From positions 1-50,089 of the forward strand of contig JAVEDP010000027.1 in NCBI GenBank assembly GCA_030841085.1: DNA of 50,089 nt, written 5' to 3'. How positions within the stretch are numbered: position 1 is the first letter of the stretch; every line of letters starts with the position of its first letter. The notes under the pieces were generated by a model, which was not told where the DNA came from, made no database searches, and saw only the letters and a program-made list of their open reading frames with translations. This DNA is from Pyrinomonadaceae bacterium. GTDB taxonomy: Bacteria; Acidobacteriota; Blastocatellia; Pyrinomonadales; Pyrinomonadaceae. The position numbers and the translations under genes were made by a program. Shown here piece after piece: positions 9,411 through 48,403 of this stretch.

Positions 9411-9603
9411 TTCAGTCCGCGTTAGCGGACGACCGATAATAGCCCAGCGATTTATCGCTGGGAGTCGCGAACCAGATCTAAGTCCGTGAAGCGAACGGTG
9501 CTGATCATTCAACCGTCCGCTTCACGGACTATTTTCTTTCACCGGTTATCCCAGCAGTGAACTGCTGCGCTATTGTCATTCGTCCGCTATCGCGGACTGA
9601 AAG
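9411..9603. repeat. Composite palindromic element, family IV
   Basis: The left arm has two stacked hairpins (GTCCGCGTTAGCGGAC at 9415-9430 and CAGCGATTTATCGCTG), the right arm has two matching ones (CAGCAGTGAACTGCTG at 9552-9567 and GTCCGCTATCGCGGAC at 9582-9597), and the centre is a long stem pairing 9481-9498 with 9513-9530. The order of arms is symmetrical, as in a REPIN. It fills the gap between the convergent methyltransferase and response-regulator genes. Confidence 0.7.
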
Positions 9604-19560: not shown

Positions 19561-19740
19561 CAGGTCCGAAGGACCGAAAGTTAGTAGCCCCGTCCGTGAG
19601 GGCGGGGAAGCTATCTTCTGAGATCTCCGAGGCCCAAAGGGCCGGCACCGATCTGTCGCACCTTCGGCGCTCCGGCAACTAATCATGCTTCTAACCCGCC
19701 CTCACGGACGGGGCTATTGACTAGCGGTCCTTCGGACCTG
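19561..19740. repeat. REPIN-like element, family III, copy 2
   Basis: The arms are CAGGTCCGAAGGACCGAAAG plus TTAGTAGCCCCGTCC on the left and GGACGGGGCTATTGACTAGC plus GGTCCTTCGGACCTG on the right, nearly perfect inverted repeats. It matches copy 1 at 2781-2944. It lies between the hybrid kinase and peroxiredoxin promoters. Confidence 0.85.
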
Positions 19741-31451: not shown

Positions 31452-31809
31452 CTGAGTTCATTCCCGGTTTCTCGCCAATTGCCTTTTTAATATATTCCTC
31501 AATTATTGGTTGCTTATAAAAGAACACCATGGTTGGGTGTTCATGAACTGAATCAAAATCGACGATGCCAATTATTTTTTGCTTTATTTGAACAGACTGC
31601 GGATAACCGGTGAGATCTTCAAACTTAAATCCCTCTTCAACCCCACAAAACTGCTGGACCTTCTTCAACAGATATTCTAAAAGAGTAACCTCCTTGGTTT
31701 CCCAGTCGACTTGAGTCCTTTTGACAGCCTCAGACAGCTCCTCAAGCGAGTTATTGCAGATCTCGGTGAAAACCGCCTCATCAAATTCTTTGTGCTTTTT
31801 ATGCGCCAT
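31441..31809 (-). CDS. Hypothetical protein (122 aa), first gene of a small AT-rich operon
   Basis: From ATG 31809 the product has 122 residues (an in-frame TTG at 31842 adds 11 unlikely residues). It is acidic, mostly helical at the N-terminus (DEAVFTEICNNSLEELSEAV) and alpha/beta later (IKQKIIGIVDFDSVHEHPTM). No motif is recognised. The base composition of 30979-31809 is clearly more AT-rich than the kinase and BNR genes on either side, which suggests recent acquisition. It overlaps the next gene by 11 bases. Confidence 0.6.
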   Translation of the reverse strand: MAHKKHKEFDEAVFTEICNNSLEELSEAVKRTQVDWETKEVTLLEYLLKKVQQFCGVEEGFKFEDLTGYPQSVQIKQKIIGIVDFDSVHEHPTMVFFYKQPIIEEYIKKAIGEKPGMNSDAI

Positions 31810-31927
31810 AATTAATGGGCCCCAGCGTATTTGATCGCTCAAATAATAGTTTGGCCGCTAACAGGAACAATCTGACAGCGCGCATTCCGCAGCGGGAGCC
31901 ACTCTCAATCTATTGGACCAATAAGTC

Positions 31928-35663: not shown

Positions 35664-35667
<4 letters not shown>
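34828..35667 (-). CDS. cheR: CheR-type protein-glutamate methyltransferase
   Basis: The start is GTG 35667, overlapping the stop of the large kinase by four bases (GTGA), giving 279 residues. It has the CheR N-terminal helical domain ([20 protein letters not shown]) and the SAM-binding Rossmann domain with [17 protein letters not shown] and [14 protein letters not shown], both typical of the family. It should methylate glutamates on a partner protein using SAM. There are no chemoreceptor, CheA or CheW genes here, so the pair works in a non-chemotaxis context, likely with the HAMP-rich kinase encoded next to it (inference). Confidence 0.93.
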
Positions 35668-41486
<5,819 letters not shown>

Positions 41487-43486: not shown

Positions 43487-44178
43487 CGCGGCTCTGCCGC
43501 ATCCTGTGCGGAAAGGCTCTGCCTTTCCGGTCAACCACCCCATTCTTCGCAAGGCTATGCCTTGCGAGAATGCCAGCGAATTTCACTCACATCCATTAAC
43601 AGCGGTTCATTTTCTTCCATGCATTTTAACCAACACCGAATACTCGACCATCGGTAAGTCTTTGCATCCTCAACCAAACCAGCCCTAACGGGGTTCTGAT
43701 GAATGTAATTTGCTTTCTGAATAAACACATCCTCATCGGTTATTGATTTCAGGTTTGGATGATGGTCCCAAAGCGAATAGCGATAGCGGTTTCTTCCTTG
43801 TTGGTGTCGCAGCTTTTCCAAAGAAGAATCGTAGCCGCCCTCTTTAAGAAACTCAATGACGCGATGGCTGCTAATACCGTTTACATACCGTAAGCATTCC
43901 GAAGGCTTGCGCTCCGTTCCCAAAAGAAGATGGAAATGGTCAGGCATTATCACGTATGCGAACAGTAAAAGTCCTGCGGAGGTTCTTGCTTCATTGAGGG
44001 CACTACAAACCAAGTCCTTCATTTTTGCCTTCTGAAAAACCGGCAGACGTTTGTTTGTCACTGATGTGATGTAATACGCAGGTGTGTCTTTGGAAATACT
44101 GAACATGAGGCATAGCCTCCCTCGTGTGTTGGCTTTTCGGAAAGGCAGAGCCTTTCCGCACAGGATGCGGCGAAGCCG
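43487..44178. mobile_element. RAYT-carrying REPIN unit, family I
   Basis: The left arm (from 43487: GCGGCTCTGCCGCATCCTGT and CGGAAAGGCTCTGCC) is mirrored by the right arm (to 44178: GGCAGAGCCTTTCCGCACAG, ATGCGGCGAAGCCGC). Each arm also has an inner hairpin, CGCAAGGCTATGCCTTGCG on the left and GAGGCATAGCCTC on the right. The transposase gene fits between them. The outline is the same as the empty copies at 1766-1927, 27037-27193, 46105-46274 and 48445-48601. Confidence 0.82.
43555..44106 (-). CDS. REP-associated tyrosine transposase (RAYT, Y1 HUH family)
   Basis: The start at ATG 44106 (183 residues) follows the right-arm hairpin; an upstream extension to 44226 runs into the REP. HUH motif FHLLL in VIMPDHFHLLLGTERKPS, helix tyrosine in LRYVNGISSHRV, and NYIHQNPVRAGLVEDAKTYR with WSSI are the typical RAYT patterns. 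It recognises and cuts REP hairpins on one strand. The stop codon falls within the left inner hairpin, so the gene and its repeats are interlocked. It seems intact. Confidence 0.87.
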   Translation of the reverse strand: MFSISKDTPAYYITSVTNKRLPVFQKAKMKDLVCSALNEARTSAGLLLFAYVIMPDHFHLLLGTERKPSECLRYVNGISSHRVIEFLKEGGYDSSLEKLRHQQGRNRYRYSLWDHHPNLKSITDEDVFIQKANYIHQNPVRAGLVEDAKTYRWSSIRCWLKCMEENEPLLMDVSEIRWHSRKA

Positions 44179-44287
44179 CGAGAATACAGTGTCGAATAGG
44201 ATCACGCTCAACGGTGGTAAGGTCAATCGCTTGCGTCAATAGGGTCGTAATCAAATCTTGAAACAAATCTTGTATTAGTCGGTTGAA

Positions 44288-46366: not shown

Positions 46367-46795
46367 ATGTCTTGTCTCTTTTGCGGAATCGTTAATGGTG
46401 AGGTCAGCGCAACAGTTGTCTTTGAAGACGATAGTTCAATAGCTTTTCTCGATCATCGCCCACTGTTCCCGGGCCATTGCTTGCTCGTCCCAAAAGATCA
46501 CTTCGAAACGCTCGGCGATCTTCCTTCCGAACTAGTCGGGCCCTTCTTTCAGAACGTGCAATTGCTGGCTCAGGCAGTTGAACTTGCGCTTGAAGCGGAA
46601 GGCTCTTTCGTGGCGATGAACAATCGCATTAGCCAAAGCGTGCCTCATTTGCACGTGCACATTGTCCCGCGCAAGAAAAAAGATGGCCTGAAAGGATTTT
46701 TTTGGCCGCGAAACAAATACAAAACCGAAGATGAAGTGCTTGAGGTGCAAAAATCAATTCAAACGGCGATTGCTGCGATACAAAAACGCCAATGA
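46367..46795 (+). CDS. HIT family nucleotide hydrolase/transferase
   Basis: The 142-residue product is a histidine-triad protein. The triad is H94-L-H96-V-H98 in PHLHVHIVPR, and the N-terminus has the CLFCGIVNGE start with two cysteines seen in zinc-containing members. Family enzymes hydrolyse nucleoside phosphoramidates or dinucleoside polyphosphates. GAGGT lies just before ATG 46367. Normal length, cytosolic. Confidence 0.94.
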   Translation: MSCLFCGIVNGEVSATVVFEDDSSIAFLDHRPLFPGHCLLVPKDHFETLGDLPSELVGPFFQNVQLLAQAVELALEAEGSFVAMNNRISQSVPHLHVHIVPRKKKDGLKGFFWPRNKYKTEDEVLEVQKSIQTAIAAIQKRQ

Positions 46796-46894
46796 AAGCG
46801 GCGCATCTTATTCAAATCCATTAGCGCAAGAGTTTTTTTCAACTCTTCAAAAAATAAAACACATAAAAAATTGATCTTAAAAATGCATTCGCGT

Positions 46895-47225
46895 ATAACT
46901 CTCCACGTCGCGAGGGTCACGGCCTTCGAGACCAACCAAGGGATCGGCAACCGATGTGGTGACACACGGAAGAGGGGAAAGACAGGCGGCTGTTAATCCT
47001 ATTGACGCCCTGGGTTGAAGCCGAAAGGCTTTGCTAGAGAAGGCTGCGAGGCTTTCTCGAGCCATTCGGATAAAAACGAGTGGTACCCTTTAGACAGGAC
47101 CCGCTGAAGGGGGCGAATGGTTCGATGAAAGTTGAACCGACGTTGCTGGGTCGTAACCAGAGGTGGAGGAAAAGCCACCAAAACAAAAACCTAAAGGCAC
47201 CGCATCCGAAAGGATGCGAGAATGG
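46895..47225 (+). ncRNA. Large structured non-coding RNA, possibly HEARO/IscB omega-RNA-like
   Basis: The region folds into a run of short hairpins on the plus strand, many with GAAA tetraloops: ATCGG-CAA-CCGAT (46943-46955), AAGCC-GAAA-GGCTT (47018-47031), 47037-47043 with 47052-47058, CCATTCG (47062-47068) with CGAATGG (47114-47120), TTCGAT-GAAA-GTTGAA (47121-47136), GGTGG/CCACC (47162-47179) and CGCATCC-GAAA-GGATGCG (47201-47218). No protein frame fits it. This density of tetraloop stems is typical of catalytic or guide-type RNAs. From memory it resembles HEARO/IscB-associated RNA, which would lie upstream of a nuclease gene; here only a short frame follows. The type is a hypothesis; the structure is seen directly. 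Confidence 0.6.
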
Positions 47226-47349
47226 TAAAACATTTCGTGTGCTGACCGAAGATGTGACTGACCGCCAGTCCTTCATCGGGATACAAATCGGCAGCAACAG
47301 CGTGTACATGCCAAGCTGCCATCCTTTTAAAAGCTTCGGCGATTATTAG
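47225..47349 (+). pseudogene. Short frame downstream of the ncRNA, possible remnant of an IscB-type nuclease gene
   Basis: The frame reads VLTEDVTDRQSFIGIQ and then SNSVYMPSCHPFKSF before a stop at 47347-47349. IscB-type proteins begin with a block ending in a PCHP motif (from memory), and the string SNSVYM-PSCHP could be such a start with an internal deletion. The match is short and may be chance. The rest of 47226-47596 holds a hairpin repeat and the VOC gene leader. Confidence 0.25.
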
Positions 47350-47409
47350 GAAACGGATTGCGCTATCTTCAGCTTGCTGGAGGTGGCGTTTTCCGTTTTT
47401 GCGTTCAGG

Positions 47410-47465
47410 TGTCCGATAAACTTTAGTTTGTCGCCGGCTTACGACAAGCTAAAGCTTATCGGACA
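47410..47465. repeat. Palindromic element, TGTCCGATAAAC family, copy 2
   Basis: TGTCCGATAAACTTTAGTTT and AAGCTAAAGCTTATCGGACA are inverted arms of a 56-base hairpin with a loop of about eight bases. It differs from copy 1 (15622-15677) at only a few positions. Followed by CCCGACCCGTTTTTT, it might also terminate the preceding RNA. Confidence 0.85.
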
Positions 47466-47596
47466 CCCGACCCGTTTTTTGCAGTCCCGCCAAATTACGT
47501 TATCATCTGCCCACACTTTCAGATCAGATTTTTCAGCCGCGCAAATTGGTCCTCGTCTCCCTACGAGTTTTGCGCCACTTCCTTAGGAGATTGATC

Positions 47597-48403
47597 ATGA
47601 CTGAAGCACGAATGCAGGAAGCCCCTACTTACGCGCCCGGTACTTTTTGCTGGGTGGAACTCGCCACAACTGACGGCGAGTCCGCCAAGAAGTTTTACAC
47701 CGAGTTGTTTGGTTGGACCTTTACGGATTCCCCGATTGGACCAGGCATGGTCTACACCATGCTCAAGCTGGATGGCAAAGATGTCGGCGCGCTCTACACA
47801 ATGCCGGACGAAATGATCACGCAAGGCATTCCTCCGAATTGGCTTTCCTATGCGTCAGTTGCCAATGCGGACGAAAGCGCGGCGAAAGCAAAGGAACTCG
47901 GCGGCACCATGATGAAAGAGCCGTTTGATGTAATGGAGGTGGGACGCATGGCGGTGGTCCAGGATCCAACTGGCGCCGTCTTTGCCATTTGGCAAGCGGG
48001 CACACACACCGGCGCGGGTGTAGTCAATGCGCCGAATTCACTCTGCTGGAATGAGCTGGCAACGCCCGACACAACCAGGGCCGGAGATTTTTATTCGGGA
48101 CTTTTTGGTTGGACTACCAACGTTCAGCAAATGGGACCGATGACTTACACGACTTTCAAGAATAACGATCGGCCGGCCGGCGGAATGTACACGCCGTCGC
48201 CGGAAATCGGAGAAACTCCAGCGCATTGGCTGGTTTACTTTGCCGTCGACGATTGTGATACGAAGGTGAAACGCGCGAACGAACTTGGCGCCAGAACGAT
48301 CGCGCCGCCGATGGACATTCCCAACACCGGACGATTTGCGATGTTGCTGGATCCGCAGGGCGCGGCTTTCGCGATCATCAAACTCACAATGACGCAGGAG
48401 TAA
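47597..48403 (+). CDS. Double VOC (glyoxalase/bleomycin-resistance-fold) protein
   Basis: From ATG 47597 the product has 268 residues (a longer frame from 47546 has no ribosome-binding site); TAGGAGA lies seven bases upstream. Two VOC domains are seen, residues about 8-125 (FCWVELATTDGESAKKFYTE) and 135-262 (LCWNELATPDTTRAGDFYSG), which align with each other and probably arose by duplication. VOC domains bind metal and small molecules; substrate unknown. Cytosolic, single gene. Confidence 0.88.
   Translation: MTEARMQEAPTYAPGTFCWVELATTDGESAKKFYTELFGWTFTDSPIGPGMVYTMLKLDGKDVGALYTMPDEMITQGIPPNWLSYASVANADESAAKAKELGGTMMKEPFDVMEVGRMAVVQDPTGAVFAIWQAGTHTGAGVVNAPNSLCWNELATPDTTRAGDFYSGLFGWTTNVQQMGPMTYTTFKNNDRPAGGMYTPSPEIGETPAHWLVYFAVDDCDTKVKRANELGARTIAPPMDIPNTGRFAMLLDPQGAAFAIIKLTMTQE

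Follow-up and report, generated by a model that had tools for sequence, protein, structure and literature searches.

Large and strongly structured noncoding RNAs are few in bacteria, and several of them lack a known function. OLE RNA (Ornate, Large, Extremophilic), as described in abstracts, measures ~600 nt, folds into many short stems and has a limited host range among Gram-positive extremophiles. According to a structural study, the homo-oligomers of OLE, ROOL and GOLLD were solved by cryo-EM, ROOL and GOLLD assemble via kissing loops, OLE contains a palindromic kissing loop, and phages and prophages encode ROOL, frequently in the vicinity of tRNA islands (PMC12286853). From Acidobacteria, the structured RNAs Acido-1 and Acido-Lenti-1 (RF01686, RF01687) have been described (PMC2864571).

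Here, we analysed a stretch of 50,089 nt from a Pyrinomonadaceae bacterium (GenBank assembly GCA_030841085.1, contig JAVEDP010000027.1), henceforth called the window, which harbours at 46906-47400 on the plus strand a presumed RNA gene of ~495 nt, whose ends were inferred from a promoter and a terminator. With OLE, as portrayed in the abstracts, this RNA shares a large size, many short stems, conserved unpaired bases and a narrow host range, whereas it differs in lacking an Rfam match and in its hosts, which are Acidobacteriota rather than the Gram-positive extremophiles named there. ROOL and GOLLD are similar in size class and in their ornate multi-stem architecture; in contrast to them, the RNA has no Rfam match, the window is devoid of tRNAs and no phage record matches, the only matching viral contig being a chimera-like one from an RNA phage. 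Acido-Lenti-1 is a different matter, as its model covers 46 positions and its two copies in the window lie outside the RNA; both score above the gathering cut-off and map to the minus strand (9414-9462 and 19562-19607). We consider it likely that the locus is a single-copy gene representing a new family of large structured noncoding RNA, for which a trans-acting scaffold is the best reading. It would add a large structured RNA without Rfam relative, but with dozens of homologues, from a little-studied soil phylum.

The gene is framed by the following elements (window coordinates):
46845-46870, plus strand: A-rich upstream element adjoining the -35 box; conserved within the window's clade and of the AAAAATAAAACACAYAAAAA type in most members
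46871-46899, plus strand: sigma-70-type promoter (TTGATC at 46871-46876, 17-nt spacer, TATAAC at 46894-46899)
46906-47400, plus strand: structured noncoding RNA (fold z -7.0; covariation in alignments A1-A3)
47352-47400, plus strand: intrinsic terminator, a long G+C-rich hairpin followed by UUUUU

In 63 of 64 homologues, a sigma-70-type promoter was detected directly before the RNA by a lenient rule that we set ourselves and applied without a shuffle control. Its -35 box reads TTGAC in 58 and TTGAT in 6 of the 64 homologues, the spacer measures 16 nt in 45 and 17 nt in 18 of 63, and its position before the RNA is fixed, whatever the neighbouring genes. Directly before the -35 box, at the place of the A-rich element, 46 of 63 homologues carry an alternative, strongly conserved form, AAAGTAYTTTCTAC, which may be either an UP-type element or the site of a regulator. 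At the other end, an automatic rule of our own, again without a shuffle control, recorded an intrinsic terminator after stem P13 in 55 of 62 homologues; three of the seven that it missed (L084, L086, L088) possess a hairpin by eye. With this promoter and terminator, a transcript from ~46906 to 47400 is to be expected, and judged from its sequence the gene would be an independent transcription unit equipped with signals at both ends. An earlier reading of the window, made from its letters only and here called the sequence-only reading, had located a structured RNA at 46895-47225. A structured RNA is indeed present there, but ~175 nt of its 3' end had been left out, that is, P12, P13, P14 and the terminator, and the unit rather spans ~46906-47400.

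A possible indirect sign of the transcript comes from a viral sequence collection. Contig L191 (4124 nt) encodes the maturation protein and the replicase of an RNA phage, and its bases 202-390 (189 nt) are 90% identical to the homologue L102. Phage sequence sets in at about base 391, where relatives have their own 5' hairpin, and the nearest relative, L192, starts with a short terminal hairpin at the point where the RNA piece joins the phage sequence of L191; for bases 1-201, no match was found among the phage relatives, in the RNA or in a plasmid record. Both findings argue for a chimera and against a phage whose 5' end carries the RNA. As RNA phages lack a DNA stage, L191 is probably a chimera that arose in RNA-derived data. 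This suggests that the RNA is present, as RNA, in an environmental transcriptome and that the gene may be transcribed in vivo; carry-over of DNA is also possible.

The folding energy of 46895-47225 on the plus strand is -135.8 kcal/mol as compared to -100.5 +/- 5.2 kcal/mol for dinucleotide-preserving shuffles (z -6.8), none of 100 of which matched it. The complete RNA was likewise more stable than each of 100 shuffles, while the minus strand of 46895-47225 reached a z of -3.0. A protein gene finds no support at this place: the overlapping open reading frames are short, the one compared with Pfam (47080-47349) has no match, and the stems of the homologues differ by insertions and deletions, which counts against a coding explanation.

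Covariation was assessed in three overlapping alignment blocks, A1 (63 rows out of 65 RNAs), A2 (all 65 RNAs) and A3 (51 rows out of 64 five-prime segments), each of which was folded and its pairs counted against controls. In A2, 92.9% of the cells are paired, a share that, as in the other blocks, is favoured by structures derived partly from the same alignments, and 20 of 31 pairs changed on both sides, giving 292 such cells in a count that ignores kinship and therefore scores one event many times among related sequences; the controls yielded a mean of 82 cells upon shuffling and at most 84 with slid partners. Counted in the same manner, A1 has 94.4% paired cells, 15 of 31 pairs changed on both sides and 140 such cells (shuffle mean 34; slid partners at most 43), and A3 has 97.3%, 26 of 34 pairs and 276 cells (shuffle mean 75; slid partners at most 36). 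For five measures in each of the three blocks, 0 of 500 shuffles attained the observed value. The types of compensatory change are numerous and scattered across the RNA tree. Being variable in length, P4, P11, P14 and the terminator lie outside the count. The sequence-only reading, which had spoken of a large, GNRA-rich structured RNA of unassigned type, had made this claim dependent on compensatory changes in homologues. With the fold z-scores and with most counted stems far above their controls across 65 RNAs, the claim is firmly upheld.

At the level of the sequences compared, the conserved fold consists of about fifteen short stems linked by strongly conserved unpaired segments (GGAUAAAAAC, CGUAA, AGGAAAAG, an A-rich linker, CCGC and UGUACA). 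In order along the plus strand, these are:
46907-46932, plus strand: P1, the 5' hairpin; two helices, 98.0 and 99.3% paired; 2 of 6 pairs changed on both sides
46933-46936/47014-47017 and 46939-46942/47008-47011, plus strand: P2, enclosing P2a and P2b; 8 of 8 pairs changed on both sides
46956-46965, plus strand: P2a, hairpin with GUGA tetraloop; 100% paired; 2 of 3 pairs covary
46975-47000, plus strand: P2b, stem with a conserved CGG-containing loop; 94.9% paired; 5 of 5 pairs covary
47018-47031, plus strand: P3, hairpin AAGCC-GAAA-GGCUU; 100% paired; 3 of 5 pairs covary; no variation of CCGAAAGG within A3
47037-47058, plus strand: P4, hairpin with GCGA tetraloop; from folds and homologue sequences; length variable
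47061-47084, plus strand: P5, hairpin with the nearly invariant loop GGAUAAAAAC; 93.7% paired; 7 of 8 pairs covary
47086-47111, plus strand: P6, stem; 83.1% paired; 7 of 7 pairs covary
47120-47137, plus strand: P7, hairpin of variable length; 93.3% paired; 5 of 6 pairs covary
47145-47161, plus strand: P8, hairpin whose loop holds the invariant CGUAA; 97.8% paired; 1 of 5 pairs changed on both sides
47162-47179, plus strand: P9, hairpin GGUGG-AGGAAAAG-CCACC; best conserved stretch; 5 of 5 pairs invariant in 65 sequences
47180-47195, plus strand: A-rich single-stranded linker; many columns invariant or nearly so; unpaired in the predicted folds
47196-47200/47239-47243, plus strand: P10; 100% paired; 4 of 5 pairs changed on both sides
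47201-47218 and 47220-47235, plus strand: P11 (GAAA) and P11b, variable hairpins inside P10; from the fold alone
47246-47279, plus strand: P12, stem; CCGC conserved in the apical loop; 94.7% paired; 2 of 6 pairs covary, 3 constant
47290-47320, plus strand: P13, hairpin; two helices, 89.4 and 88.8% paired; 8 of 10 pairs covary
47322-47351, plus strand: P14, hairpin with UUCG apex; from the fold, a comparable stem following P13 in most of 27 loci inspected

In the window, one pair of P2b and the outermost pair of P8 are mismatches; the varying pair of P8 is CG in 60 and UA in 5 sequences. P9 is invariant, so that covariation is silent about it, and it also lies within the pattern by which most sequences were collected. 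Hairpins with GNRA loops, as noticed from the sequence, are indeed present (GUGA at 46959-46962, GAAA at 47023-47026, GCGA at 47046-47049, GAAA at 47208-47211). The stems of the GUGA and of the first GAAA loop are conserved with compensatory changes, and those of the GCGA and of the second GAAA loop differ in length among homologues and stand outside the covariation count. A long-range stem between 47062-47068 and 47114-47120, also proposed at that stage, had to be abandoned: the two strands are complementary in the window, but among the 65 RNAs only 56.7% of the cells are paired as compared to a shuffle mean of 56.8%, and the 5' strand pairs locally with 47077-47083 in P5 instead.

A scan of column pairs and the RNA tree were both based on 62 rows (L088, L056 and L100 were left out). 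The 110 highest-ranking pairs of the scan contain no pseudoknot. By eye, the loops of P1 (UUACG) and P8 (CGUAA) could kiss, and those of P6 and P8 could form a pseudoknot, in some sequences, but both pairings fail in others and are absent from these 110 pairs; as the P8 loop is invariant, covariation cannot address its pairings. Further listed pairs, such as 46928-46990, 46936-46992 and 46998-47119, do not belong to the helices; standard pairs are frequent in some of them, and we tentatively put them down to clade structure. Within the P6 loop, positions 47097 and 47102 covary (UA 34, GC 21, GA 5, CA 1, UG 1; n = 62), with repeated changes on the RNA tree (9 for the five states together, at least 4); they possibly form an intermolecular kiss or, equally, the closing pair of a tetraloop.

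The apex of P13, UGUACA at 47303-47308, reads UGUACA in 55, UGUGCA in 2, UGGCCA in 1 and UGACGA in 5 of 63 sequences, and is self-complementary in 58 of them if G-U pairs are allowed. Self-association via this apex is possible. The five UGACGA sequences form one clade on the RNA tree, which counts against a universal self-pairing role. Compared with the homo-oligomers reported for ROOL and GOLLD, this self-complementary apical loop is the only counterpart seen here.

Blastn against 297 genomes of the phylum returned strong matches (E<1e-9) in the window genome and 16 others, all belonging to one family (f1), which should correspond to the Pyrinomonadaceae of GTDB. An exact pattern from the most conserved stretch retrieved 63 stretches from 84,980 species genomes; 62 are in records titled Acidobacteria or subtaxa thereof (Pyrinomonadaceae, Blastocatellia, two Chloracidobacterium and one Aridibacter famidurans, the latter being the MAG of homologue L051) and one is titled 'bacterium', and nearly all titled records are metagenome assemblies. 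After these had been merged with the whole-genome loci, 65 distinct RNAs remained, counting that of the window. For the middle block, a covariance model was built (R1, 134 positions); its first look scores few candidates per genome, and it matched 82 of 162 genomes of the class and 24 of 396 genomes of the phylum, again all in family f1. This family counts 119 genomes, 66 of which contain the pattern. No model match was obtained in 37 of the 119, and laxer filters applied to 28 of these 37 gave a best E of 0.03; the nearly complete genomes G086, G197 and G332 are among them, indicating that not every member of the family requires the RNA. As many members possess it and others do not, the family lends itself to a natural comparison. 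Eleven genomes from other families of the phylum also gave weak blastn matches (E 5.8e-4 to 5.8e-3; seven at the P1 region), which we ascribe to chance: they lie inside open reading stretches of 211-854 residues, and in their vicinity no more than one of four conserved RNA motifs is seen. The RNA was found only in one family of Acidobacteriota, in which it has presumably been inherited vertically. It is present in one copy in the window genome, and two assemblies, G340 and G395, have two model matches each. In G340, these are two different RNA copies (L056 on contig C236 and L088 on contig C323), both close to the end of their contig. At L151-L154, the model gave weak matches of 20-25 bits.

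Rfam 15 was searched with 4227 models, which we take to include those for HEARO, introns, OLE, ROOL and GOLLD, and the region 46700-47620 was additionally searched permissively at E<=10. No gathering-level match lies within the RNA, and even at E<=10 with permissive filters there was none within 46906-47400 except for 3 nt of overlap. Nearby, models of the microRNA and antisense type match a separate inverted repeat (47398-47475; best E 0.00024, well short of the family cut-off), and other weak matches at E<=10 lie up- and downstream of the RNA. Across 19 homologous loci (57 kb), searched up to E 3, three matches of E 0.7-2.7 emerged, none above its cut-off: two are microRNA models that align to the terminator hairpins of L007 and L008, and the third is distant from the RNA. 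A literature search combining Pyrinomonadaceae or Blastocatellia with noncoding RNA found no paper, and the titles and abstract openings covered for related RNAs, a scope outside which a 2017 survey falls, contain no description of the RNA; that survey reportedly comprises 224 candidate structured RNAs. PMC11109978, searched by term, likewise yielded nothing. Within the range of Rfam 15 and of the literature searched, we class the RNA as a new family within the general kind of large structured bacterial noncoding RNAs, and that it is an independent structured family is almost certain.

The larger clusters of neighbouring genes were named by Pfam and comprise ribosomal proteins L21 and L27, the Obg GTPase, a cytidylyltransferase-like (NadD-like) protein, RsfS and a SPOUT methyltransferase (RlmH-like) as well as, in the window's clade, HIT and glyoxalase proteins. 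That is, the RNA mostly resides in the rplU-rpmA-obgE region, and in the window's clade beside HIT and glyoxalase genes. Among 62 loci, rplU/rpmA and obgE-operon genes were seen on both sides in 21 and on one side in 17, HIT/glyoxalase-EamA surroundings in 12, and others or none in 12; the move between the two main sites amounts to a single change on the RNA tree (50 rows counted). In genomes without an RNA match, we inspected 28 obgE loci (22 from the family, 6 from outside). In 22 of these (16 in f1, 6 in other families of the class), rpmA lies ~2-232 nt upstream of obgE, and for the remaining 6 it was not found in the stretch examined; judged by gene order, this spacing without the RNA is an empty site. 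Thus, on the sequence evidence, the gene is independent of any one neighbour, and the retention of RNA, promoter and terminator next to differing genes argues for a role in trans.

We lean towards a trans-acting scaffold of a ribonucleoprotein or RNA-only particle, since its large size, its single gene copy with a promoter of its own, its numerous small stems and its invariant unpaired stretches are typical of large RNAs working as folded entities, among them OLE, ROOL and GOLLD. According to this model, the sigma-70-type promoter would start the ~495-nt transcript and the intrinsic terminator would end it; the transcript would fold into about fifteen short stems, and the folded body would act in trans, with the conserved unpaired segments serving as contact sites of the particle. 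Neither a protein partner nor an enzymatic motif was identified. A more specific proposal, which we regard as rather doubtful, is that of an ornate RNA of the OLE/ROOL/GOLLD kind with an independent origin, forming a particle via UGUACA of P13 and acting in ribosome assembly or translational stress, the latter because its usual site is the rplU-rpmA-obgE-nadD-rsfS-rlmH cluster. The site beside rpmA and obgE is only a hint at a link to ribosome assembly or translation, as the window's clade keeps the RNA elsewhere.

Alternatively, the RNA could be a cis-regulatory leader (a riboswitch or attenuator) of the downstream gene, often obgE, with the terminator as switch and the loops as sensor. It is indeed frequently found ahead of obgE and in the same orientation, and a terminator closes it; however, the downstream gene varies (Obg, glyoxalase, chloride channel, cupin-domain protein and others), several of these genes are on the opposite strand, as is the downstream frame at many loci according to automatic picks, and a fixed tie to one downstream gene is absent, given two main sites plus the 12 loci with other surroundings. 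Moreover, the promoter precedes the RNA at its fixed place irrespective of the neighbours, and ~495 nt is an unusual size for a leader. Hence, we hold this explanation to be improbable. A ribozyme or other large catalytic RNA unrelated to known classes appears similarly unlikely: the many invariant unpaired nucleotides might form an active site and the GNRA loops could dock in tertiary contacts, but no ribozyme or intron family matches, and the RNA stays in place as a single gene. Of the group I and II intron, OLE, ROOL and GOLLD models, all but the last named for checking in the sequence-only reading, none matches at the locus or at the 19 homologous loci, and a single copy with its own promoter and terminator is unlike an intron remnant or a transposon guide.

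The trans-acting scaffold also has to be weighed against a diverged housekeeping RNA, with which single copy, own promoter and wide occurrence in the clade would agree. This is very unlikely, as the window genome encodes RNase P RNA (234.5 bits) and tmRNA (160.3 bits) at other places, a borderline 6S candidate lies on contig C30 at 31665-31850 (46.3 bits versus a cut-off of 46.4), no SRP model matches the locus (46700-47620, E<=10), and several near-complete relatives have no match for the RNA; RNase P RNA, tmRNA and 6S were rejected as its identity on these grounds. Finally, a HEARO/omega-RNA used in trans by an IscB-type nuclease, the first candidate of the sequence-only reading, shares with the RNA only size class and GNRA hairpins and has next to no chance of being correct, as there is no HEARO match (E<=10 at the locus, up to E 3 at the 19 homologous loci), the IscB-type domain (RRXRR) is absent from the window genome and found in just 2 of 119 family genomes, one of which (G086) gave no match for the RNA, no IscB-like protein is among the named larger neighbour clusters, the proposed 5' guide at 46860-46895 coincides with the conserved promoter region, and the RNA has one copy. 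The RRXRR matches of G086 are located on its contigs C2 and C4.

Further elements of the window deserve mention. Directly after the terminator, at 47405-47470, lies an inverted repeat with 29-nt arms, which are 90% complementary, and an 8-nt gap. It has 47 matches in the window genome, some places being counted on both strands, and no copy follows the terminator in L094, the nearest relative; it therefore looks like a recently inserted small repeat element. A protein with a Y1_Tnp (IS200-like) transposase domain is encoded at 43555-44226 on the minus strand, and the short open reading frames around it repeat similar peptides, which presumably resemble REP-type repeats beside a RAYT gene. Also on the minus strand, 35664-41486 is a sensor-kinase-like open reading frame of 1940 aa, in which many near-identical tandem blocks, HAMP-like by eye, are followed by what by eye resembles kinase and receiver sequence.
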